Assembly: GCA_019240525.1 (NCBI GenBank)
Contig: JAFAYE010000001.1
Location: 97,300 to 161,299 of the forward strand
Direction of reading: 5' to 3'
Origin: Candidatus Eremiobacterota bacterium
GTDB lineage: Bacteria > Vulcanimicrobiota > Vulcanimicrobiia > Vulcanimicrobiales > Vulcanimicrobiaceae
Length of the DNA stretch: 64,000 nt
Within the stretch, counting starts at the first letter, position 1. Each line of letters begins with the position of its first letter. The position numbers were made by a program, and so were the translations under genes. Below the pieces are notes generated by a model. The model searched no databases and had not been told where the DNA came from. It was given only the letters and a program-made list of their open reading frames with translations. Shown here one piece after another: positions 1,929 to 14,088 of the stretch.

Positions 1929-2324
1929 CTAAAGCAGCGGCTTTCTGAAGCTAAAGCCTTCATCGAGGCCGTGCCAGTAGCCAACCTGCGGCTCACCGAG
2001 TTTCCAACAAAGATAGACCGGTTCGTCGCCGATCATCGACGGGAAGTCAACGAGCCCCAGGTCGATGTCCTTCACAACACATCCGAGCGCTTCGATCCGG
2101 TAGATCAAGCGGCCGATTTCGCGTTTGAGCTCCGCAAACTTCGGTTGAGGAAGCGCGGAACGCGCGGCCGCCAATCGAGGGCGGCTCGGGGGCAAGTGAT
2201 GGAGCGCCGGATCGGATTCGAGCAACTTAATCGCAAGCTCCCGCCGCCGGCTGAGCAGCTCTTCGATGAGCGGCTCGAGCTTCGGGATGAGGGCGTTGGC
2301 GCGTTCGGGCGAAAAGAGCTTCAT
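1929..2324 (-). CDS. DUF2203 family protein
   Basis: A 131-residue soluble protein starting MKLFSPERANALIPKLEPLI. It has a helical N-terminal half, a DIDLGLVDFPSM segment near residue 86 and a Trp/Tyr-rich end (YLCWKLGEPQVGYWHGLDEG). This is the full-length DUF2203 pattern: N-terminal helices, then a conserved strand pair with acidic and aromatic residues. No function is established. Its start codon abuts that of rapZ with no bases between them (CATATG at 2322-2327), so promoter and ribosome-binding signals for each gene must lie inside the other. Confidence 0.75.
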   Translation of the reverse strand: MKLFSPERANALIPKLEPLIEELLSRRRELAIKLLESDPALHHLPPSRPRLAAARSALPQPKFAELKREIGRLIYRIEALGCVVKDIDLGLVDFPSMIGDEPVYLCWKLGEPQVGYWHGLDEGFSFRKPLL

Positions 2325-3185
2325 ATGGGTGCGCTGCGCATCGTCTTCGTGACGGGCCTCTCGGGGGCGGGCTTAAGTCAGGCGATTAAATCTTTCGAAG
2401 ATTTGGGCTTCTACTGCATCGAACACCTGCCTGCGGTCGTACTCGATTCAGTTATCGCCGCGCTGGAAAGCTCGGCGCCGCGAGACGTCGCCATCGCGCT
2501 CGACATGCGGAGCGGCGCCGAGTTGGGAGACGCGAAGCGAGCGATTGACGCCGTCGCGCGAAGCCACGACTCGCGGCTGCTCTTCTTGGAAGCGTCCGAC
2601 GACCTGCTGGTGCGGCGATTTAGCGAAACCCGGCGCCGCCATCCCTTCGCTTCAGGCGGATCGATTCGCGAAGCGATCGAGGCCGATCGGCGGATGGCAG
2701 CGCCACTGCGCGAACGGGCCGATGTCGTCATCGACACGACGAACCTCACCGCCGGAGCGCTCAAGCAGCGAATCGCCGCCGCTTTTCTCGGGGATCGCCC
2801 GATTCGACTGACGATGACCGTTGTTTCGTTTGGTTTCAAGTATGGCGTGCCCGCCGATCTCGATCTGCTCTTCGACGTTCGTTTCTTGCGCAATCCAAAC
2901 TACGATGAGGCGCTCGCACCGCTGACTGGGGAGGATGAAGCCGTTGCCGCCTTCATCGAACGCGATCCGTCACTTACACCGTTCTTCGCAAAAGTCTCGG
3001 ACTTACTCGATTTCCTTGTGCCGCGCAACCAGGCCGAAGGCAAAACCCAACTGAGTGTCGGCATCGGCTGCACGGGCGGCCGGCACCGCTCGGTCTACGT
3101 CGCTCGCCGGCTGATGCGGCATTTCGCCGACGATCCGCGGCTCGACGTTGCCTTCGAGGCGCGCGATCTCGCGCGGGTTGCATAG
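2325..3185 (+). CDS. rapZ: RapZ-family protein lacking the Walker A lysine
   Basis: A 286-residue protein matching the usual RapZ/YvcJ length. The start at 2325 places the P-loop at residues 9-18, as in the family. RapZ is a nucleotide-binding protein that in E. coli senses glucosamine-6-phosphate and directs decay of the sRNA GlmZ. The N-terminal domain keeps a VVIDTTNLT strand; the C-terminal domain has the conserved GCTGGRHRSV loop. The P-loop reads GLSGAGLSQ, with leucine at position 17 where GxxGxGKS requires lysine, so nucleotide binding may be impaired. Its stop overlaps the yvcK start (TAGTG), implying translational coupling. Confidence 0.88.
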   Translation: MGALRIVFVTGLSGAGLSQAIKSFEDLGFYCIEHLPAVVLDSVIAALESSAPRDVAIALDMRSGAELGDAKRAIDAVARSHDSRLLFLEASDDLLVRRFSETRRRHPFASGGSIREAIEADRRMAAPLRERADVVIDTTNLTAGALKQRIAAAFLGDRPIRLTMTVVSFGFKYGVPADLDLLFDVRFLRNPNYDEALAPLTGEDEAVAAFIERDPSLTPFFAKVSDLLDFLVPRNQAEGKTQLSVGIGCTGGRHRSVYVARRLMRHFADDPRLDVAFEARDLARVA

Positions 3186-4522
3186 TGCGTTCCCGGTTCT
3201 CCGGTTTCGTACAGTGGCTCGTACCGGGCGCCGGCATGAAACGTTGGATTTTCCTCGCGGCCCTCGGCATCGTCGTTCTGCTCGACGCCGCAACGCGATG
3301 GCTGATTGCCGAAGGCACCGGCATCCACGTCAACGAGATTCTCGACGGGATCGTCGTCGATTATTTTCCGCCCGGCTACCTCACGTGGATGTTGGCCATT
3401 GCCGGCGGGGCGCTCGTCGTGACCGGTCTGTGGATGTGGTTACGCGCGGTCGTCCGGATCGCGCGGGCGCGCAATCCCAAAGGTTTCCGCGAAGCGCTTG
3501 CCGGACGCCGGCTCCAACAAGGGTACAAAATCGTCGCCATCGGTGGCGGCACCGGTCTTTCGACCCTGCTGCGCGGCCTCAAACGACGAACCAGCAATCT
3601 AACCGCCGTCGTTACCGTGAGCGATGACGGCGGCTCTTCGGGCCGTCTCCTCAAGGAGCTCGGCGTCTTGCCGCCGGGTGACATTCGCAACTGTCTGGTC
3701 GCGCTGGCCGACGACGAAGCTCTGGTGACCGATCTTTTTCGCTATCGGTTCACCGAAGGTGAGGGATTAAGCGGTCACTCCTTCGGCAATCTTTTCTTGG
3801 CCGCGATGTGCGGCATTACCGGAAACTTCGATCAGGCGGTCAAGGAATCGAGCCGCGTGCTCAATGTCGTGGGCCGCGTTTTGCCCGCGACGCTTGGCAT
3901 CGTCCGCCTTTGCGCCGAGCTCGAGGACGGAACGATTGTCGAGGGGGAGTCGAACATTCCCAGGGCGCATGGCCGGATCGCGCGAGTCTTTTTCGATCCG
4001 CCCGTTGCGTCGCCGCTGGAAGAAGTCATTGCCGCGATTCGCGATGCCGATGCGATCGTGCTCGGACCCGGTTCGCTCTACACCTCGGTGATACCGAACT
4101 TTCTCATCAGTCGCGTCGCGCGTGAAGTCGCGCACGCGCACGCCGTTAAAATGTACGTCTGCAACGTCATGACACAACCGGGTGAGACCGATGGCATGAG
4201 CGCGGCCGATCATGTCGCGGCGTTGCTCGCGAATGCCGGCGAGCGAGTCTGCGATTACGTTATTGTGAACGACGAGCCGCCGTCACGGCTGCTGGGTGCC
4301 TACGCTCAAGAGGGGCAAGTGCCCGTCCAGCCGGACGTCGAGCGCATCGCGTCCCTTGGTGTGGAACCGGTCGGTGCGGCGGTGATTGGAGAAACCGAAA
4401 CGGTGCGCCACGATCCGGAGAAGCTCGCGTCGGTCGTGCTGGGCATTATCGATCGCACGGTCGCCGAGCGCGCGACCTTGGTCAAGTTACGGCCTAGTGT
4501 GGCGACGGCGGCGCGAGCGTGA
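3185..4522 (+). CDS. yvcK: Gluconeogenesis factor YvcK/GlmR, membrane-anchored form
   Basis: A 445-residue protein of the YvcK/GlmR (UPF0052, CofD-like) family, which binds UDP-GlcNAc and controls flux into peptidoglycan precursors. The GTG at 3185 is chosen because the leading FVQWLVPGAGMKRW segment resembles the N-terminus of membrane-anchored family members; the ATG at 3237 would remove it. Two hydrophobic helices (about residues 20-38 and 60-82) precede the catalytic-like core, which opens with KIVAIGGGTGLSTLLRGLK near residue 114 and contains TVSDDGGSSGRL and PPGDIRNCL. The rapZ-yvcK pairing is a classic bacterial operon, but the usual third gene, whiA, is absent. Confidence 0.9.
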   Translation: MRSRFSGFVQWLVPGAGMKRWIFLAALGIVVLLDAATRWLIAEGTGIHVNEILDGIVVDYFPPGYLTWMLAIAGGALVVTGLWMWLRAVVRIARARNPKGFREALAGRRLQQGYKIVAIGGGTGLSTLLRGLKRRTSNLTAVVTVSDDGGSSGRLLKELGVLPPGDIRNCLVALADDEALVTDLFRYRFTEGEGLSGHSFGNLFLAAMCGITGNFDQAVKESSRVLNVVGRVLPATLGIVRLCAELEDGTIVEGESNIPRAHGRIARVFFDPPVASPLEEVIAAIRDADAIVLGPGSLYTSVIPNFLISRVAREVAHAHAVKMYVCNVMTQPGETDGMSAADHVAALLANAGERVCDYVIVNDEPPSRLLGAYAQEGQVPVQPDVERIASLGVEPVGAAVIGETETVRHDPEKLASVVLGIIDRTVAERATLVKLRPSVATAARA

Positions 4523-4878: not shown

Positions 4879-6282
4879 ATGGCAAGCCGCGCCCCGTCCT
4901 CCGAGGCGGTCCGCCTAACGTATTGCGAAAACGCGCTCGAAGCGATCGGTCACACGCCGCTTGTCAAGCTTAACAAGGTAGTGGACGACGCTCGGTCTCT
5001 GGTCCTCGCGAAGGTCGAGTACGTCAATCCGGGCGGCAGCGTCAAGGATCGACCGGCGGTTGCGATGCTCGACGCGGCCGAACGGCAAGGGCTACTCAAG
5101 CCCGGCGGCACGATCGTCGAGCCGACGAGCGGGAATACCGGAACCGGTTTGGCCATGGCGGCGGCCATTCGCGGTTATCGCTGCATTCTCGTGATGCCCG
5201 ACAAAATGTCGCGGGAGAAAATCGACCTCTTGCGCGCGTACGGTGCCGACGTTGTCATCACGCCGACCGACGTGCCGCCCGATTCCCCGGAGTCCTACTA
5301 CGGCGTCGCTAATCGTTTGGCCGCCGAAATTCCCGCGGCATTCCAACCGAATCAGTTCCACAATCATTTCAATCCGGACGCGCATTATCACACGACTGGC
5401 CCCGAGATTTGGGAAGCGACCGGCGGAGCCATTACGCATTTCGTCGCCGGCATCGGCACGGGCGGAACGATCTCGGGCGCGGCGCGATACCTGAAGGAGC
5501 GAAACCCCGCGATTTACGTCGTCGGCGCCGACCCGGAGGGCTCGATCTATTCGGGCGACATTCCACGTTCTTACGCCGTCGAGGGCATCGGGATGAGCTA
5601 TCTGCCCGAAACGGTCGACCTGCGGGTAATCGACGAAATGGTGCGGATCTCCGATCGCGATTCTTTCTTGATGGCTCGGCGAATCGCGCGCGAGGAAGGG
5701 CTGCTCGTCGGCGGCTCCTCGGGCACGGCCGCCGTTGCCGCCGTGAAGCTTGCAAAGACGCTGACGGCCGACGCAATCGTCGTCGTTATTTTGCCAGATT
5801 CCGGACGCGGCTACATGTCGAAGATTTTCAATGACGACTGGATGATCGCCAACGGATTTCTTGCCGATTCTAAGCGGCGAGCGACGGTTGGCGACGTGTT
5901 GCGAAGCAAGACGCCGATGCCGCCGATGATCACGGTACAACATGAAGACACGGTCAAAACCGCGCTCGATTTGCTTCGAAAATACGAAATCTCGCAGATT
6001 CCCGTCATGCGGGGGGGCGAGCAGGTCGGCAGCGTCAATGACGTCGGCGTTATGCAGAGCGTCTTCGATCACTCCGACATCCTGCATCAGCCCGTGAGCG
6101 AGGTGATGGGACGTCCGTTCCCGGCGTTGGAACAAGCCGAGGAGATCGAGCGCGCCTACAAGCTCCTCACCTTGGCCAATCCGGCGATTGTGGTTACCGA
6201 CGACGCCGAGCCGATCGGGGTGTTGACGCGCCAAGACGTGATCACATTTCTCTCGACGAGTTCCGACGTCGTGCGCACGTGA
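4879..6282 (+). CDS. cbs: Cystathionine beta-synthase
   Basis: A 467-residue PLP enzyme condensing serine (or O-acetylserine) with homocysteine to cystathionine, the first step of reverse transsulfuration. The fold-type II core spans about residues 10-325: the PLP lysine lies in GGSVKDRPAV, the phosphate-binding loop follows in TSGNTGTG, with GTGGTISG later and LPDSGRGYMSKIFNDDWM at the core's end. Two CBS domains fill residues 340-460; in the family these act as a regulatory module. Its stop overlaps the start of the gamma-lyase-like gene by 4 bp (GTGA), so the two steps are co-translated. Confidence 0.9.
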   Translation: MASRAPSSEAVRLTYCENALEAIGHTPLVKLNKVVDDARSLVLAKVEYVNPGGSVKDRPAVAMLDAAERQGLLKPGGTIVEPTSGNTGTGLAMAAAIRGYRCILVMPDKMSREKIDLLRAYGADVVITPTDVPPDSPESYYGVANRLAAEIPAAFQPNQFHNHFNPDAHYHTTGPEIWEATGGAITHFVAGIGTGGTISGAARYLKERNPAIYVVGADPEGSIYSGDIPRSYAVEGIGMSYLPETVDLRVIDEMVRISDRDSFLMARRIAREEGLLVGGSSGTAAVAAVKLAKTLTADAIVVVILPDSGRGYMSKIFNDDWMIANGFLADSKRRATVGDVLRSKTPMPPMITVQHEDTVKTALDLLRKYEISQIPVMRGGEQVGSVNDVGVMQSVFDHSDILHQPVSEVMGRPFPALEQAEEIERAYKLLTLANPAIVVTDDAEPIGVLTRQDVITFLSTSSDVVRT

Positions 6283-7451
6283 GATTTTCGACCAAAGCGA
6301 TCCACGTCGGTCAAGAGGCCGATCCAACGACCGGCGCGACCATCGTCCCCATTTATCAGACCTCCACCTACACCCAGACGCGCGTCGGCGAGCATAAGGG
6401 TTTCGATTACAGTCGCACCATTAATCCGACGCGCCTTGCACTGGAGCGTCAGCTCGCCTCGCTCGAAGGGGCGCGTTTCGGCAGCGCCTTTGCCAGCGGA
6501 ATGGCCGCGACGACGGCGGTACTCAGCCTGCTATCCGCGGGCGACCATGTCGTCGTCAGCGACGATCTCTACGGCGGTACATATCGGCTCTTCGCGCGCG
6601 TGCTTGAGCGGTACGGTTTGCTCTTTTCCTACGTCGACATGACGGATCTCAACGCGGTAAGCGCCGCGATCCGCCCTGCCACAAAGCTCTTTTGGATCGA
6701 GACCCCGACCAATCCGCTCCTCAAGCTCATCGACATCCACGCGGTCTGCAGGATTGCCGGACGAAGCATCGTCGCCGTCGACAATACGTTTGCAACGCCC
6801 TATTTTCAGCAGCCGCTCGCTCTGGGCGCGCACGTCGTCGTCCACTCGACCACGAAGTACATCGGCGGTCACAGCGATGTCGTCGGCGGCATTGTCATTA
6901 CCGACGATGAGTCGCTGCACGAACAAATTCGCTTCGCGCAAAACGCCACCGGCGGCGTTCCCGGGCCGCAAGATGCCTGGTTGACGATGCGAGGCGCCAA
7001 GACGCTCGCAGTGCGGATGCGCGAGCACGAGCGCAACGCACAGCGCGTCGCTGAATTTCTAGCTTCGCGCGACGACGTGGCACAGGTTCACTATCCGGGC
7101 CTGCCATCGCACCCGCAGCACGAGCTCGCGCAGCGGCAGATGAGCGGCTTTAGCGGAATGCTTTCGTTTGAACTTGCCGGGCCGCCGCAGCGCGCGCTCG
7201 AGTTTGCGAGTCGCTTACGTCTCTTTAGCCTTGCCGAGAGTCTCGGCGGCGTCGAATCGCTCATCTGTCATCCGGCGCGAATGACCCACGGCTCGATTCC
7301 AAAAGAGGAGCGCGAGCGGCGGGGCGTCTCCGACGCGCTCTTGCGACTCTCCGTGGGCATCGAAGACATCGACGACTTGCTCGGCGATCTACGCCAAGCG
7401 CTCGAAGCTATGGCTGACCGGCCGGGTAGCGAACTGCCGACGCCTGTTTGA
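6279..7451 (+). CDS. mccB: Cystathionine gamma-lyase/gamma-synthase family enzyme
   Basis: A 390-residue fold-type I PLP enzyme of the Cys/Met metabolism family. It has the family opening FSTKAIHVGQE, YSRTINPTR, the aspartate-containing VDNTFATPYFQQPL near residue 165, and the Schiff-base lysine in VHSTTKYIGGHSDVVGG. Sequence alone does not separate synthase from lyase. Placement directly behind cbs, with a GTGA overlap, suggests cystathionine gamma-lyase completing cysteine synthesis from homocysteine. The 3' end overlaps the convergent gene at 7408 by 44 bp. Confidence 0.87.
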   Translation: MRFSTKAIHVGQEADPTTGATIVPIYQTSTYTQTRVGEHKGFDYSRTINPTRLALERQLASLEGARFGSAFASGMAATTAVLSLLSAGDHVVVSDDLYGGTYRLFARVLERYGLLFSYVDMTDLNAVSAAIRPATKLFWIETPTNPLLKLIDIHAVCRIAGRSIVAVDNTFATPYFQQPLALGAHVVVHSTTKYIGGHSDVVGGIVITDDESLHEQIRFAQNATGGVPGPQDAWLTMRGAKTLAVRMREHERNAQRVAEFLASRDDVAQVHYPGLPSHPQHELAQRQMSGFSGMLSFELAGPPQRALEFASRLRLFSLAESLGGVESLICHPARMTHGSIPKEERERRGVSDALLRLSVGIEDIDDLLGDLRQALEAMADRPGSELPTPV

Positions 7452-7944
7452 GCGCCGCGCGCGCTTCGTCGGCGGTCGCGTCGCCGAGCCGTACCGTTTC
7501 CGAAAGTACGATTCCACGCTGGCCGTCGGCCCAGACAATTGCGAACTCCTTTTTGGCGTCGAAACCGCTGCCGTACGCCACCTCGACAAAATAGGCCGGC
7601 ATTCCATTGGAGAGAGTCATCGGAGTCCGGTTACGGATCAAGACGCCCTCTTGCGAGCTGTGCGTTTGGCTCTCGAACTGCGATTCCCATTGAGCCGGCG
7701 GGCCGCTATACGCTTCCATCGCAATTTGGATCAAGCGCGCGTCCTCTTGGCCTGCATGGAGCACCCAGGCGGCAACGGGCTGGAGATCTTGACCGAGCGA
7801 TTCAGCCGGCGCCGGTTGACGGTTGACAAGAACCGCGTCTGAGGGCGCGGTAAAGCTCATCGCCGCATCGCTGTAGACGTGCGGATCGGGCGACGGCGTC
7901 GGCTCGGTCACTTGCGCGAGCAGAAGAAAAATTAGGCCGATCAT
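7408..7944 (-). CDS. Exported protein of unknown function
   Basis: A 178-residue protein with a short hydrophobic start (MIGLIFLLLAQ) that may be a signal peptide or anchor, followed by a Pro/Ser linker and a globular domain of roughly 140 residues. It alternates strands and helices and contains the stretch GMPAYFVEVAYGSGFDAKK. I do not recognise the family; the general look resembles small PsbP/Mog1-like beta-sandwich lipoproteins, but that is only an impression. It starts 4 bp inside the stop of the esterase gene, so the two form an operon. Confidence 0.55.
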   Translation of the reverse strand: MIGLIFLLLAQVTEPTPSPDPHVYSDAAMSFTAPSDAVLVNRQPAPAESLGQDLQPVAAWVLHAGQEDARLIQIAMEAYSGPPAQWESQFESQTHSSQEGVLIRNRTPMTLSNGMPAYFVEVAYGSGFDAKKEFAIVWADGQRGIVLSETVRLGDATADEARAALKQASAVRYPAGQP

Positions 7945-8981
7945 TCCTTGTCGAGAACGCCGGCCAGCGCCGGCAGCGAGACTTGGTAGCGATAGTTGAC
8001 GTTGCGGTGATCGTCGTCGAATTCCTCGTGGCGCACCGAGAGACCGAGCTCGCGAATGCGCTCGGCGACGACACGCGCACCGATGTCGAGATTATACTCG
8101 TCGCGCCGTCCACAATCCAAATAGCGAAGGCGAAGACGCTCGAGCTGCTCCCGATGCGTGGCCACGCGCTCCGCCGGATCGAACGCCAGCCAGCGGGCGA
8201 AGACGTCGTCCCGCAACTCGCCGGTCGCTCGATCGAAAGGCAGCTCAATGTCGAAGGCCTTCGCGCTTCGCGGGGAATAGGCTGCGGCATACGCCAGCAT
8301 TTCCATCGTCGTGTATTCGGTGCCGTCGTGCTTGGGCTTGCCTTCGAATGCCTCGACGTAGGACGCGATATCGAATCCATGCGCCTCGAGCGCTCGATGG
8401 ACCGTTGCGAACGCCGGGATGTGGGCGTAACGGAAGTACGAGTCGCCGCTATGCGAGGCGAAGGCGGCAAAGACGCCGGGACGTTCGAAAACGAGGTGCA
8501 TCGCGCCAAAGCCTCCCGACGACTTTCCGAGCACCGCGCGACCGCCTTCCGAGGCAATCGTGCGATAAGCCCGGTCAACGTGGCCGACGACGTCGCGCAC
8601 GGTGTAGGTCGCGTAACGCCCGTTATGCACCGAATCGACGTACTGCGAGCCTCCCAATCGGGTAAAGCCGTCGACGAGCACGATCAACACCGGGGGCATG
8701 CGCCCTTCGCGAATGAGACGATCGGCCCACTGCACGACGTTCGTTTCCCACGGCCGTGACGAGATGAGCGCGGCGGCATCAGCGGTATAGCCATGCAAGA
8801 CGTAGAGCGCCGGATACCGCCGCGTGGCTTGCGCGTCGTACGCGGGCGGCAAATAAACGACGACGGGGCGTGTGGCGGGATCTCCCAGCGGATTCCGCGC
8901 CAGCGCTTCGCTTTCGATCGAATCGATGCGAACATTGCCGTCCAAACCAAGAATGCGCGCGAGATCGGAGCGCTCGTGCAT
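7941..8981 (-). CDS. Esterase D-like alpha/beta hydrolase
   Basis: A 346-residue enzyme with the esterase (Fes/antigen 85-like) hydrolase pattern: RYPALYVLHGYTADAAAL supplies the oxyanion-hole region, VLGKSSGGFGAMHL the nucleophile elbow (GxSxGG), and EEFDDDHRNVNYRY the C-terminal histidine region. Such enzymes cleave carboxyl esters of siderophores, acylated sugars or formyl-glutathione; the substrate here cannot be told. There is no signal peptide, so it is probably cytosolic. It is the first gene of a pair with the exported protein at 7408-7944. Confidence 0.75.
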   Translation of the reverse strand: MHERSDLARILGLDGNVRIDSIESEALARNPLGDPATRPVVVYLPPAYDAQATRRYPALYVLHGYTADAAALISSRPWETNVVQWADRLIREGRMPPVLIVLVDGFTRLGGSQYVDSVHNGRYATYTVRDVVGHVDRAYRTIASEGGRAVLGKSSGGFGAMHLVFERPGVFAAFASHSGDSYFRYAHIPAFATVHRALEAHGFDIASYVEAFEGKPKHDGTEYTTMEMLAYAAAYSPRSAKAFDIELPFDRATGELRDDVFARWLAFDPAERVATHREQLERLRLRYLDCGRRDEYNLDIGARVVAERIRELGLSVRHEEFDDDHRNVNYRYQVSLPALAGVLDKE

Positions 8982-9030: not shown

Positions 9031-12000
9031 ATGACTAAGCTCAAACGCGTCATTGATTTGCGCGGCGCGATCTCGATCAACATCATTACGATGATCGGCA
9101 TCGGACCGCTCGTTACGATTCCATTGGTGATCGCGGCGCTCGGTGGTCCGCTCGCATTGGTCGGTTGGATTGCGGGGGCCGTCATCGCGCTCTGCGACGG
9201 TTTGGTCTGGGCGGAACTTTCGTCGCGCTATCCCGGTTCGGGCGGGACGTACGTCTATCTGCGTAACGTATTCGGCCCCGAGAGACTCGGCAAGGTGCTG
9301 GCCTTTCTCTTCAACTGGCAGTTTTTACTGGCCGCGCCGTGTCTGCTCGCCAGTGGCTACATCGGATTTGCGAACTACGTCGCCTACTTGTATCCAGCGA
9401 TTGGCTCGAATGTCGCGCTCCACGATAGCGTCGCGGTTGGGGTCGGCGTTGTGACGCTCGGCTTTCTTTATCGTCGAACGTCGGATGTGGCATGGCTTGG
9501 CGCGGCCCTCGCCATCACCGCAATTCTGACGATCGTCCTCGTTGCGGCCGCAGGCCTTTGGCACGCCGATCTCTCGCGCGCCTTCCATGGTGCGAACCCG
9601 GTAAGTCTCAACATCGGCTTCCTCGCCGGATTGGGTACCGCGCTCTACATTACGCTCTACGACTACGCAGGCTACGCCGAGGCGGCATTCTTGGGCGACG
9701 AAGTGACGCGCCCGGAGCGAACGATTCCGCGCTCGATCGTGCTTTCGGTGTTGATCGTTGCCGTGCTCTACGTGCTGTTGCAAGTCGGCGTGCTGAGTGC
9801 GGTACCCTGGCAATCGTTGCTCGACGCACACGGACAGCCTACCGTCCAGGCGCAGTACGTCGGCGCCTTTGTCGTCGAGCGCAGCTGGGGGCGCGTCGCA
9901 GCGGTTGTGGTGACGCTCTTGGTGCTGGTCACGGCATTCGCCTCGCTTTACGGCAATATGCTCGGCCTGTCGCGCATTCCGTTTGCTGCAGCGCGCGACG
10001 GCGCATTTTTGCCGGCATTCGCCCGATTGCATCCCCGCAAAGACTTTCCGCACATCGCGCTGTTGGTCGTCGGTGCGCTCTCGTTGATAGCCAGCCTCTT
10101 TACACTCGATCAAGTGATCGCGTTTTTGACGGCGGGGATCGTGCTGATCGAAAGCATCGCGCAAATCATCGCGCTCGCCGTGGTGCGGCTGCGCCGCCCT
10201 GCGGCGCCCTTTCGCATGCCGCTCTATCCGCTGCCGGCGCTCGTTGCCCTCGCCGGCTGGTCGTGGGCCTTCGTCGCGAGCGGCCCTGCCGCCATCACCC
10301 TGGGCCTCGGCTGGCTGCTGATCGGTGGCGCTGTCTATCTGATCGCCGCGCGCGCATGGCGGTGGTGGCCGTTCTTGCTTGCGTCACTACTGTTCTTCGC
10401 ACTTCCGGCGGGAGCGCGCGCCGCAGAAACTGCAAGTTGGTCGCACTGGAATGCGTCGCGAGTGGTCTCCGATCGCGGCTATTCGGTCTTGACCGTCGAC
10501 GGGCGACCGTTTTTCGCTTACGGCGCGGCGTTCTTCTACGAGCGCATGCCGCGCGAGCGCTGGCGTCCGGCGCTGCTTGCCTATAAGCAGCTGGGCATCA
10601 ACACGATCGATCTCTACGTCATTTGGAACTGGCACGCTCCGGCGCAAGGCGTGCTCGATTTCACCGGTGCGACCGATCCGCGACGCGACCTCTTGGCGCT
10701 GCTCCGGCTGACGCACGAACTTGGATTCAAGCTGATCGTTCGCCCTGGGCCGGTGATTCGTAACGAATGGCGCAACGGGGGATATCCGGCGTGGCTGCTC
10801 GAGCGCGCGGCGTACGATATGCCGCTGCACGATGTTTTGGAAGGCCGCTACCCCGCGACGGCGACGCTGCAGAATACCGACGCCGACGCCGCGGGCATGG
10901 AGTGGATGACCAATGCCAATCATCTTCGTTCGGCCGGTGATTGGCTGCGCGACGTCTTACGGGCAATCGAGCCGTACTCGAGTGACGTGATCGCTATTGC
11001 ACTCGACGACGATCAGGGCGCCTATCTCGACAACAACACGTGGCCGGCGCCTCACTGGCGCCGGTACGTTGCCTGGCTCGCCTCGACGGTGCGATTCGTA
11101 ACCGGATCACGCATTCCGCTCTTCATCAACACGTATGAGATGAAGGTCCCCGCTGCATCGCCGGTTTGGGCGTGGGGAAACTGGTATCAAGGCAGCTCCT
11201 ATCGCATCGGCGATCACGATCTTGCGGATCTCGACTTCGCCACGGGTTTGCTCCAGACGCAGGCGCACGTGCCCGTGATGCAATCCGAATTTCAAGCCGG
11301 CTGGTTTCAAACCGCCGACGACGCTTTGCCGCGCCCGAGCGATCCCTCCAACACGGTGCTGGCTTTGCACGAACTGTTGCGCGACGGAGCGCATGGCGTG
11401 GTCAATTTTCCGGTTCAAGACACAGTCTATCCCCACGGCTGGGAAGCGCCATGGGCCAATTGGTCCTACGCCTGGGATGCGGCACTCACGCGCGACCTGC
11501 ATGGGTCGGCTCGGTACGCACCGACGTCCGCCTTTGGAGACTTGGTCGGGCGCTACGGTTCGCTCTTGGCACGGACGCACGTCGTCGCCGATGCAGCGAT
11601 TATCTGGCCCCCGACGCTTTTTGCGCCCGGAACTCTAAGCAATGCCGACTTTAGCAACTTTGGCGTTGCGACCGTGGCGGCACAACGGGCCTGTAACGCG
11701 CGTGGCCTGACCTGCACGCTCGTCGATCTCGCCGATGAGGATCGCGCACTTCGCACTGCACCACATCTTCTTCCGCTGGTTTTGTCGACGGCGCTCGAGC
11801 GACGAATGTCGCCATCGGGACTTCGCAAGCTACGCGCGCTGCAGAGAGCGCGGCGACTCTTTTTCGTTGCAGCGGCGGTGCCCGTGGCGCGCCACGAGCT
11901 CAAACCGGCAAACGTGAGTGTGTTGCTCGCCGACGACGGTTCGTATGGTTTCGTCGTGGCAATCAATCCGAATGGCGCTGCGCGCCGAGTTGCCTCAGTC

Positions 12001-12807
12001 GTCGTACCGCTGGGGCGAGGTCCAGTTGTCGTTCCTGCGTTTTCGGTGCCGGCGCGTGGTGCGCGCGTCATTCCGGTTGGCGCGGTCGCTGCCGCTCCGA
12101 GCGTTCGACCTGCTGTTGTGCTCGCAGGGGCGCCGCCGTTTGATGATCCCGATGGAACCGTAATCGCAAACTCGCATTTGCGCATCGTTTTCGCTCCCTT
12201 CGCCGGCGCAAGAATTGCGGAGTTTAGTGAGGGCAGCGGCAATGCGGCAACCAGCATCGGGCTCTTGCGCGACGCAACCGATCCGCCGCCACCGGTTTCG
12301 GCGCGCGATTTCATCGCGGCGTACACGCATCCGCTTACCGCGGGAACGTTCAATCGCGCGTACGAGTGCAGCCGGCTCGATGCATTGACCGCGCAGCAGA
12401 CAATATGCTCGTATGATGCGCCCGATCTGCCGGTTGGCGGCGGGGTTTTCAAACGCACGCTCACGCTCCGCGGCGGGAGCGGCGAGCTGATTGTTGCCGA
12501 GGAGTTCGCACCTCACGATTTGCGCTCGACGGCACGCTTGGAAAGCATCTCGGGTTTTGCATTCGCTCCTGGGGACCGGCTGTTGATCTCGAGCACGCGA
12601 TCGGCGCTCGGAATACTGCACGGCGAACGGCTTATGTTGCTGCAGTGGCGCGCGGGCGACGTGGCGCGATTCGATGTGCGGCCCACGCGCGGCGCGCAGC
12701 TGGTGACGCTCATTTTCGCGCGCCGTTCGATCCAGCTTCGGCTTGGCTTTCACAGCGCTCACGAGGCTGCCGAGGCACAGCGCCTCGTCGACGCGAATCA
12801 GCCGTAG
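9031..12807 (+). CDS. APC permease fused to a GH35-type glycosidase
   Basis: One uninterrupted 1258-codon frame. Residues 1-445 are a 12-helix amino acid-polyamine-organocation permease, with ISINIITMIGIGPLV in helix 1 and the loop DEVTRPERTIPRS. Residues 446-465 form another hydrophobic helix ending PAGARAAE, which looks like a signal peptide with a cleavage site. Residues 470-800 resemble a glycoside hydrolase family 35 barrel: FFAYGAAFFYERMPRERW, GINTIDLYVIWNWH, LIVRPGPVIRNEW and the nucleophile motif MQSEFQAGWF (Glu-753). The acid/base motif, usually ENEYG, reads DDDQG at 659-663. Residues about 900-1258 are beta-rich accessory domains. An in-frame TTG at 10375 could also start a separate secreted glycosidase. 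Confidence 0.85.
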   Translation: MTKLKRVIDLRGAISINIITMIGIGPLVTIPLVIAALGGPLALVGWIAGAVIALCDGLVWAELSSRYPGSGGTYVYLRNVFGPERLGKVLAFLFNWQFLLAAPCLLASGYIGFANYVAYLYPAIGSNVALHDSVAVGVGVVTLGFLYRRTSDVAWLGAALAITAILTIVLVAAAGLWHADLSRAFHGANPVSLNIGFLAGLGTALYITLYDYAGYAEAAFLGDEVTRPERTIPRSIVLSVLIVAVLYVLLQVGVLSAVPWQSLLDAHGQPTVQAQYVGAFVVERSWGRVAAVVVTLLVLVTAFASLYGNMLGLSRIPFAAARDGAFLPAFARLHPRKDFPHIALLVVGALSLIASLFTLDQVIAFLTAGIVLIESIAQIIALAVVRLRRPAAPFRMPLYPLPALVALAGWSWAFVASGPAAITLGLGWLLIGGAVYLIAARAWRWWPFLLASLLFFALPAGARAAETASWSHWNASRVVSDRGYSVLTVDGRPFFAYGAAFFYERMPRERWRPALLAYKQLGINTIDLYVIWNWHAPAQGVLDFTGATDPRRDLLALLRLTHELGFKLIVRPGPVIRNEWRNGGYPAWLLERAAYDMPLHDVLEGRYPATATLQNTDADAAGMEWMTNANHLRSAGDWLRDVLRAIEPYSSDVIAIALDDDQGAYLDNNTWPAPHWRRYVAWLASTVRFVTGSRIPLFINTYEMKVPAASPVWAWGNWYQGSSYRIGDHDLADLDFATGLLQTQAHVPVMQSEFQAGWFQTADDALPRPSDPSNTVLALHELLRDGAHGVVNFPVQDTVYPHGWEAPWANWSYAWDAALTRDLHGSARYAPTSAFGDLVGRYGSLLARTHVVADAAIIWPPTLFAPGTLSNADFSNFGVATVAAQRACNARGLTCTLVDLADEDRALRTAPHLLPLVLSTALERRMSPSGLRKLRALQRARRLFFVAAAVPVARHELKPANVSVLLADDGSYGFVVAINPNGAARRVASVVVPLGRGPVVVPAFSVPARGARVIPVGAVAAAPSVRPAVVLAGAPPFDDPDGTVIANSHLRIVFAPFAGARIAEFSEGSGNAATSIGLLRDATDPPPPVSARDFIAAYTHPLTAGTFNRAYECSRLDALTAQQTICSYDAPDLPVGGGVFKRTLTLRGGSGELIVAEEFAPHDLRSTARLESISGFAFAPGDRLLISSTRSALGILHGERLMLLQWRAGDVARFDVRPTRGAQLVTLIFARRSIQLRLGFHSAHEAAEAQRLVDANQP

Positions 12808-12813
12808 CTTCGC

Positions 12814-12894
12814 GGGGAAGTGGCGGAATGGCAGACGCAGCCGCCTCAAAAGCGGCCGAGGCAACTCATGTGGGTTCGACTCCCACCTTCCCCA
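12814..12894 (+). tRNA. tRNA-Leu (CAA)
   Basis: Class II tRNA with a 7-bp acceptor stem (GGGGAAG with CTTCCCC), anticodon stem GCCGC/GCGGC around loop CTCAAAA giving anticodon CAA, a long variable arm, and T-arm GTGGG-TTCGACT-CCCAC. The discriminator is A. The 3' CCA is not encoded, so it must be added after transcription. It lies 6 bp after the fusion gene and precedes a run of accessory genes. Confidence 0.93.
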
Positions 12895-13053
12895 TAAGAC
12901 TTGAGCACGAAATCGGGCCGAAAACCGGACAATTGGTGACGAATTGGTAACGGCGCCCTGACTAACCACCGTGGCGCTGCGGGCCGCTGAAGAGCGCCTG
13001 GCACGATCGGCGAACCATGCGCCGTCGGCGTCCGATGCCATCGGAGATTAAAA

Positions 13054-14088
13054 ATGAGAAGGCCGGAGTATTCGAGTCGTCGGATGGGCGTAAGACCGAT
13101 CGTCGACCTCGCAGCCGTTATTACTCTATTTATTGGTGCGTCAACCGCCGCGGCGACCTTAGAGCAACTAGGCGAAATAAATCGGTACCAATTGCCAATA
13201 ACATTGCTTGAGATTCCGACGTCTACGATCATAACATCTGGCGTACTCTTGCTCCTTCTTCTGGTTTTGTTCTTGCCTGCGATATACATGCAAAAGCGGA
13301 CGAGCCTTCGCCGATCGCAACGCTCGCTGGTAGTCCTGCAGTTCGATATTACGTTCGCCGCGCTCTTGCTAGTGGGCGTCTCACTCCTAAATGGTATCTC
13401 TTGGCACGTAGCACACGAATACTTCCCTTTGAACATCCTTAACGATCTTGCAGCGGCTATTGTTGCCTTGACACCACTTATTGTCTTGGCGATTGCGTTG
13501 TCGCCGCTCCGAATGGGGGTGCTGCTGCGGCAGCTTCGCGGCAACAGAAAGAAGTACTTTTCAGCTCTGAACGCCGCGCCGCAATCCAAGGAACAAGAGC
13601 GCAGGATCACCAGGATTCGAAAAGCACGCGTCCGCCTGCGTCAGCTTTCACTGCGTTTGCGACCAGGCGAAATTATGTCCGCGCGGGTCAGCCCATCGTT
13701 TTTCTACGTGTTTTATATCGCTTGTTTTTTCCTCATTTCCGCGTACGCTTTCGGCTTCTCTAAGAGCTATACTAGCTCTTATGCCGTCCTAACGGAGGAC
13801 AATACTTTGCAGTTGGTGATCTTAGCCTACCCGGATCTCTTGATCAGCACGTGTTATAACGACCAAAAGCACACATTCGCGCCCGGATACACTATTCGGC
13901 GTCCAATAGGCGTGACGCGAATTGTTTACAAGGAGCCTTCTCCTATGGCGCGGTATGTGCCGCGTGTCGCAGATGACCGTTTGACTTGCAGAATGGGGTC
14001 GTTTAGAGCGCCGCGGAACAGGCGGTCGAAAGCAGCTAGAGACTGGCGGCTCGATGCGGCACACCCACGCTTAAGCGCGGCGCGCTAG
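13054..14088 (+). CDS. Multi-pass membrane protein of unknown function
   Basis: A 344-residue protein; the ATG at 13054 follows a GGAG 7 nt upstream. Four hydrophobic segments are readable at about residues 15-32, 58-80, 98-118 and 135-155, then a basic helical stretch (RRITRIRKARVRLRQLSLRLR) and another hydrophobic segment near 210-230. The C-terminal 60 residues are very Arg-rich and may be read past a natural end. I recognise no family. Codon choice and base composition are visibly more A+T-rich than the neighbours, and the gene sits just after a tRNA, so it is a candidate for horizontal acquisition. Confidence 0.5.
   Translation: MRRPEYSSRRMGVRPIVDLAAVITLFIGASTAAATLEQLGEINRYQLPITLLEIPTSTIITSGVLLLLLLVLFLPAIYMQKRTSLRRSQRSLVVLQFDITFAALLLVGVSLLNGISWHVAHEYFPLNILNDLAAAIVALTPLIVLAIALSPLRMGVLLRQLRGNRKKYFSALNAAPQSKEQERRITRIRKARVRLRQLSLRLRPGEIMSARVSPSFFYVFYIACFFLISAYAFGFSKSYTSSYAVLTEDNTLQLVILAYPDLLISTCYNDQKHTFAPGYTIRRPIGVTRIVYKEPSPMARYVPRVADDRLTCRMGSFRAPRNRRSKAARDWRLDAAHPRLSAAR

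Follow-up and report, generated by a model that had tools for sequence, protein, structure and literature searches.

A conserved fusion of an APC permease to a GH35-like enzyme, with a predicted signal peptide at the join, in a family of the Vulcanimicrobiota

The DNA analysed here (the window) is a stretch of 64,000 nucleotides from a Candidatus Eremiobacterota bacterium (assembly GCA_019240525.1, contig JAFAYE010000001.1, positions 97,300 to 161,299), whose family comprises uncultured soil bacteria of the phylum Vulcanimicrobiota (also called Eremiobacterota). It contains a gene in which a single frame of 1258 codons runs from an ATG at 9031 to a stop at 12807 without an internal stop, encoding an APC permease, a signal-peptide-like segment, a GH35-like enzyme and beta-rich domains (Table 1). 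Pfam assigns residues 14-417 to AA_permease_2 (PF13520, E 2.5e-35) and residues 487-593 to Glyco_hydro_35 (PF01301, E 4.8e-30), both above the curated cut-offs. The fusion frame keeps its codon bias through the join, with negative values in both other forward frames. In an AlphaFold model of the full-length protein both halves fold and their mutual arrangement is without confidence (predicted template modelling score, pTM, 0.53). We searched for relatives with both domains in one protein among 99 genomes of the window's bacterial family, some of them incomplete drafts, and found both parts in one frame across the junction in 48. Because these genomes carry the same joined frame, a chance open frame or an assembly error is ruled out, and the stop-free joining of a permease to a GH35-type enzyme proposed in a preliminary description of the locus is borne out by frame, Pfam matches, codon bias and relatives alike. 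The open literature yielded no account of a single chain that contains both an APC permease and a glycosidase. The permease-glycosidase fusion is a real, conserved and apparently undescribed architecture built from known parts.

In five further family genomes the joined gene is interrupted by contig edges or frameshifts, which brings the joined total to 53, spread over many genera. In 29 family genomes a gene of its own encodes the enzyme, complete with a signal peptide. A separate permease orthologue lies elsewhere in the genome in 19 of these 29, versus none of the 53 joined genomes (Fisher p 1e-11, uncorrected for kinship). Joined and split forms stand in for one another, and together they firmly establish a functional link between the halves, tying them to one task. 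The preliminary description had regarded separate orthologous genes, divided by a stop near 10370, as evidence against a fusion. Such split genes do exist, but with 48 other genomes joined they mark the position of the join without refuting it. The two states are interspersed on the trees, with at least four changes on the permease tree and at least eight on the enzyme tree (counted with labels corrected for the contig-edge loci L023/L033, L026, L027/L031, L043 and L082), and one genus (g9) holds both; we therefore claim no single fusion and give no count of fusions and fissions. Within the phylum the enzyme is confined to the window's family, apart from one weak match. A single pattern scan of GTDB genomes, the one search that reached beyond the phylum and one that distant relatives would escape, returned 46 loci, all in metagenome-assembled genomes titled Candidatus Eremiobacterota, Vulcanimicrobiota or only 'bacterium'.

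Some individual loci depart from this pattern. One genome has two copies of the joined gene (G090:C47 and G090:C137), 47% and 51% identical to that of the window. At L043 (G033:C49) and L044/L090 (G016:C78) the joined gene is broken by frame changes or unread bases, through decay or assembly faults. Two stand-alone permeases from another family of the class (L128 and L129, in G049 and G046) branch within this family's split clade, a placement that suggests transfer of the permease between families.

The relatives locate the join. Stand-alone permeases terminate in RxWPF and a few residues at the join position, and at the matching position stand-alone enzymes have their N-terminal signal peptide, so the join reads as the permease C-terminus followed by the enzyme's own signal peptide. 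In the joined proteins W446-P447-F448 is almost invariant and leads directly into a hydrophobic core and an AxA signal-peptidase site. The hydrophobic segment ending in PAGARAAE, which in the preliminary description looked like a signal peptide, is present, and the ends and starts of the stand-alone relatives support that reading. A strict AxA site is found in 34 of 36 junctions and a relaxed one in all 36. The pattern P-x(0-4)-[AVSGT]-x-A occurs in 34 of the 36, as compared to a mean of 19.4 and a maximum of 29 in 2000 trials with shuffled junction letters, the related sequences not being independent. The core varies in sequence while the AxA motif stays, and its uncharged run is short in most junctions (about 15-20 residues). 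The predicted local distance difference test score (pLDDT) of the full-length model falls below 50 at residues 446-449 and 454-471. Because the AxA site is kept in 34 of 36 junctions, we favour a polyprotein that would be cut there by signal peptidase I, which we rate as roughly twice as likely as an enzyme that stays tethered. APC permeases usually have a cytoplasmic C-terminus (xCT topology, PMC4192586), so the enzyme would be periplasmic whether the chain is cut or not, in agreement with the outward-facing enzyme suggested earlier.

The permease half has xCT, BasC, LAT and AdiC as its PDB relatives, the best being an SLC7 protein, and it is related to the fructoselysine permease FrlA. Its PF13520 match scores 122.7 bits against a cut-off of 27 and covers profile positions 9-408 of 427. 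With SLC7/LAT, BasC/AdiC and FrlA permeases it shares the 12-helix APC fold and a GxG motif in transmembrane helix 1 (TM1), but differs from them in that motif and in having D56 in TM2 and D211 in TM6, features that 11 APC paralogues of the phylum also lack. The GSG-type amino-acid binding motif followed by I-F is not found in TM1 of the permease; nearly all of 49 orthologues have GIGPL there, versus G[STA]GIF in the 10 alignable paralogues. D56 is common to all 49 orthologues, joined or not, and is mostly Gly in the paralogues. By these motifs the permease is a distinct APC clade without the usual amino-acid motif. The Asp at 211 in the presumed substrate site and the lost GSGIF would fit a cationic substrate other than an alpha-amino acid.

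The enzyme half gave a model with pLDDT 85.7 and pTM 0.87. Its four best PDB fold matches are archaeal exo-beta-D-glucosaminidases (GlmA; 5gsm, 5gsl, 6jow and 8oug), which are also among its best sequence matches. PF01301 is matched by all 46 members, and on the window enzyme scores 105.7 bits against a cut-off of 27, covering only profile positions 2-104 of 319. The enzyme resembles GlmA in its TIM barrel, in the Asp before the acid/base residue, which binds the amine in GlmA, and in predicted catalytic residues after beta4 and on beta7. In Thermococcus GlmA, Asp178 binds the C2 amine of glucosamine, the D178N mutant is inactive, and Glu179 is the acid/base (PMC6566704). The IDDE of Pyrococcus horikoshii GlmA aligns with LDDD of the window, in a weak second-domain alignment, which would make D660 the amine-binding residue. 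The GH35 acid/base Glu after beta4 is absent from all 56 sequences, which have Asp (D661) at the position aligned with GlmA Glu179. The predicted nucleophile, E753, lies in a region that aligns with SEFWSGW of a Bacteroides GH35, so that it matches the beta-galactosidase SEF motif, whereas the GlmA nucleophile, Glu347, is at another sequence position. GlmA differs further in having no joined permease, and the window enzyme matches it in sequence only over the first third of the barrel. The GH2 exo-beta-D-glucosaminidase CsxA (PMC6566704), also of clan GH-A, has an Asp acid/base as proposed here, but it belongs to another family and its amine is bound by a distant Glu and not by a neighbouring Asp. 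Because of the glucosaminidase-like fold, the match of D660 to GlmA Asp178, E753 on beta7 and the CsxA precedent, the enzyme probably acts on an amino sugar.

Table 1. Features of the fused gene and its surroundings in the window
Feature	Position	Strand	Evidence
Fused gene: APC permease, signal-peptide-like segment, GH35-like enzyme, beta-rich domains (1258 aa)	9031..12807	+	Open frame; Pfam; joined in 48 genomes
Permease, residues 1-444, 12 predicted transmembrane helices	9031..10362	+	Pfam 14-417; AlphaFold helices; PDB relatives
D211, Asp in TM6 (LYDYxGY)	9661..9663	+	Invariant in 49/49 orthologues; Ala/Ser/Ile in 11 paralogues
Junction: permease WPF end into predicted signal-peptide core with AxA site (WPFLLASLLFFALPAGARA before the predicted cut, AE after it)	10366..10422	+	Stand-alone ends/starts; AxA 34/36; low pLDDT
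GH35-like TIM barrel, about residues 486-850	10486..11580	+	Pfam; AlphaFold model; PDB fold matches
D660-D661, matching GlmA Asp178 (amine binding) and Glu179 (acid/base, here Asp)	11008..11013	+	56/56 conserved; alignment with P. horikoshii GlmA
E753, predicted catalytic nucleophile on strand beta7 (SEFQAGW)	11287..11289	+	56/56 conserved; model strand 304-310
C-terminal linker and beta-rich domains	11581..12804	+	Model secondary structure; no Pfam match
Divergent esterase gene (PF00756), kept neighbour of enzyme gene, fused or not	7944..8981	-	Pfam; relatives' loci
Cystathionine beta-synthase and cystathionine gamma-lyase/synthase-type gene, conserved flank fixing the locus	4879..7448	+	Pfam; relatives' loci
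rapZ (2199-3182) and yvcK/glmR (3236-4519)	2199..4519	+	yvcK recurs upstream of enzyme locus in many relatives

The genes beside the stand-alone permeases bear on the substrate. At eight of these loci a NagB-II/GlmS-like SIS-domain gene adjoins the permease, overlapping by about 1 base in four; the SIS genes score with GlmS/NagB-II at E 1e-39 and 7e-27, versus 3e-4 with FrlB. Four other stand-alone permeases adjoin a mannose-6-phosphate-isomerase-like gene, and two have a GH20 hexosaminidase and a receptor-like CarboxypepD_reg gene in their vicinity. On balance, these neighbours point to amino-sugar use. The loci also have other companions: at L121, L122, L129 and L130 the permease adjoins a receptor-like CarboxypepD_reg protein of about 1170 aa and a partner of about 490 aa without a family, and at L107-L110, all in one genus, it lies beside a gene for an ACR3-type arsenite exporter and not beside sugar genes.

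In the genomes checked, the locus of the split enzyme is mostly that of the joined gene: yvcK/glmR, cystathionine beta-synthase, the gamma-lyase/synthase-type gene, a small gene and the esterase on the other strand, and the enzyme. In the window a 178-aa protein without a family and the PF00756 esterase (7411-8981, minus strand) form a pair that is divergent to the enzyme gene in most relatives. In other bacteria rapZ and yvcK/glmR regulate glucosamine-6-phosphate synthase. Their Bacillus subtilis counterparts act on GlmS (PMC7525490). As an amino-sugar link these two genes, 5-7 kb upstream of the fused gene, are weak, the pair being common in general. On the 3' side of the fused gene are a tRNA-Leu at 12814 and a 344-codon open frame (13053-14085, plus strand) that has no family and that the codon model does not call a gene.

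In our proposal the gene unites a distinct APC permease with a GlmA-like, secreted GH35 enzyme, which relatives produce as individual proteins. The chain would insert with twelve helices and a cytoplasmic end, after which the internal signal peptide would carry the enzyme into the periplasm. Signal peptidase I would usually cut at AxA, so that a single message would give permease and periplasmic enzyme in equal amounts. With less certainty, the enzyme may be an exo-acting beta-glucosaminidase with an Asp acid/base, and the permease may import the glucosamine, or a similar amino sugar, that it frees. To this proposal as a whole, a joined pair cut at the signal peptide that frees and imports an amino sugar, we give an even chance. 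It retains the idea of the preliminary description that a substrate is cleaved outside and the product imported, which the data support. The glycosylated amino compound suggested there as substrate gives way to an amino sugar, given an enzyme nearest to exo-beta-D-glucosaminidases, a permease without the amino-acid motif and amino-sugar genes beside several stand-alone permeases.

Several observations weigh against the proposal. The hydrophobic segment could escape cleavage and serve as a thirteenth helix. The acid/base Asp could mean a different or weak activity, and the enzyme scores 117.1 bits with NCBIfam NF041127 (the GlmA equivalog), far below its cut-off of 1500. The remaining stand-alone permeases lack amino-sugar neighbours. 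The Fisher test takes no account of shared ancestry, and genes may be missing from the draft genomes. NagB was not found in the window genome, where the sole PF01182 match is a 6-phosphogluconolactonase beside pentose-phosphate genes, and a NagB-II-like SIS orthologue is absent from this genome and its genus. Imported glucosamine would therefore need to enter wall synthesis or another route; a ROK glucokinase-like gene is present, so it could enter wall synthesis as glucosamine-6-phosphate.

The strongest alternative, which we hold possible but doubtful, is that the chain stays uncut and the hydrophobic segment anchors the enzyme at the permease mouth, as a single-chain counterpart of the eukaryotic SLC7 and SLC3 transporters. 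The order and topology are those of an SLC7 light chain and its heavy chain, the latter being one membrane helix with an outward TIM-barrel, glucosidase-like ectodomain (PMC4192586), the permease finds its best PDB relative in an SLC7 protein, and joining holds enzyme and permease together. SLC7-SLC3 transporters are, however, two chains, with a catalytically dead type II heavy chain (4F2hc), while the window protein is one chain with a GH35-like ectodomain, invariant catalytic positions and a signal-peptidase site. The AxA that follows a Pro in 34 of 36 junctions, the shortness of the uncharged run, the use of the same segment as an ordinary signal peptide by stand-alone enzymes, and the lack of confident packing between the modelled halves also speak against an uncut chain. 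The fuller version, in which an active glycosidase tethered at the mouth of an APC permease hands its product directly to what would then be an amino-sugar importer, is less probable still.

It is likewise unlikely that beta-glycosides of amino compounds or amino acids are the substrates of the pair, with the enzyme trimming the sugar and the permease taking the amino part. Membership in AA_permease_2, kinship with FrlA and the SIS-domain genes, which have the fold of FrlB, would fit such a role, but those genes match GlmS/NagB-II far better than FrlB, GSGIF is replaced by GIGPL with an Asp in TM6, and D660 matches the amine-binding Asp of GlmA. That the enzyme half is no longer a hydrolase but a sugar-binding or scaffold domain would account for the Asp at the acid/base position in 56/56 sequences; we consider this improbable, since the nucleophile and about 100 other enzyme positions are invariant, active-site loops included, and CsxA works with the same residue. 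The separate enzyme that the preliminary description derived from an internal TTG at 10375 with a GGTGG-like site, by ribosome restart, is very improbable, because, although the TTG and the upstream stretch exist, only 4 of 36 fused relatives have a start codon there, 8 of 36 lack any in-frame start close to the join, and the GG-rich stretch is made of codons of the conserved C-terminal WPF motif that also ends stand-alone permeases.

The FbcH cytochrome b/c1 polyprotein of Bradyrhizobium likewise has a membrane protein and an exported protein in one chain, linked by an internal signal peptide at which signal peptidase cuts; its products are respiratory subunits, of families unrelated to the fusion described here. 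We know of no described APC permease that takes amino sugars. If the proposal is true, the APC permease of these bacteria would take up an amino sugar and their GH35 enzyme would function with an Asp acid/base. The join would be an example from nature of a signal peptide that sits inside a chain, after twelve membrane helices, and the fusion a bacterial parallel to the SLC7-SLC3 transporters.

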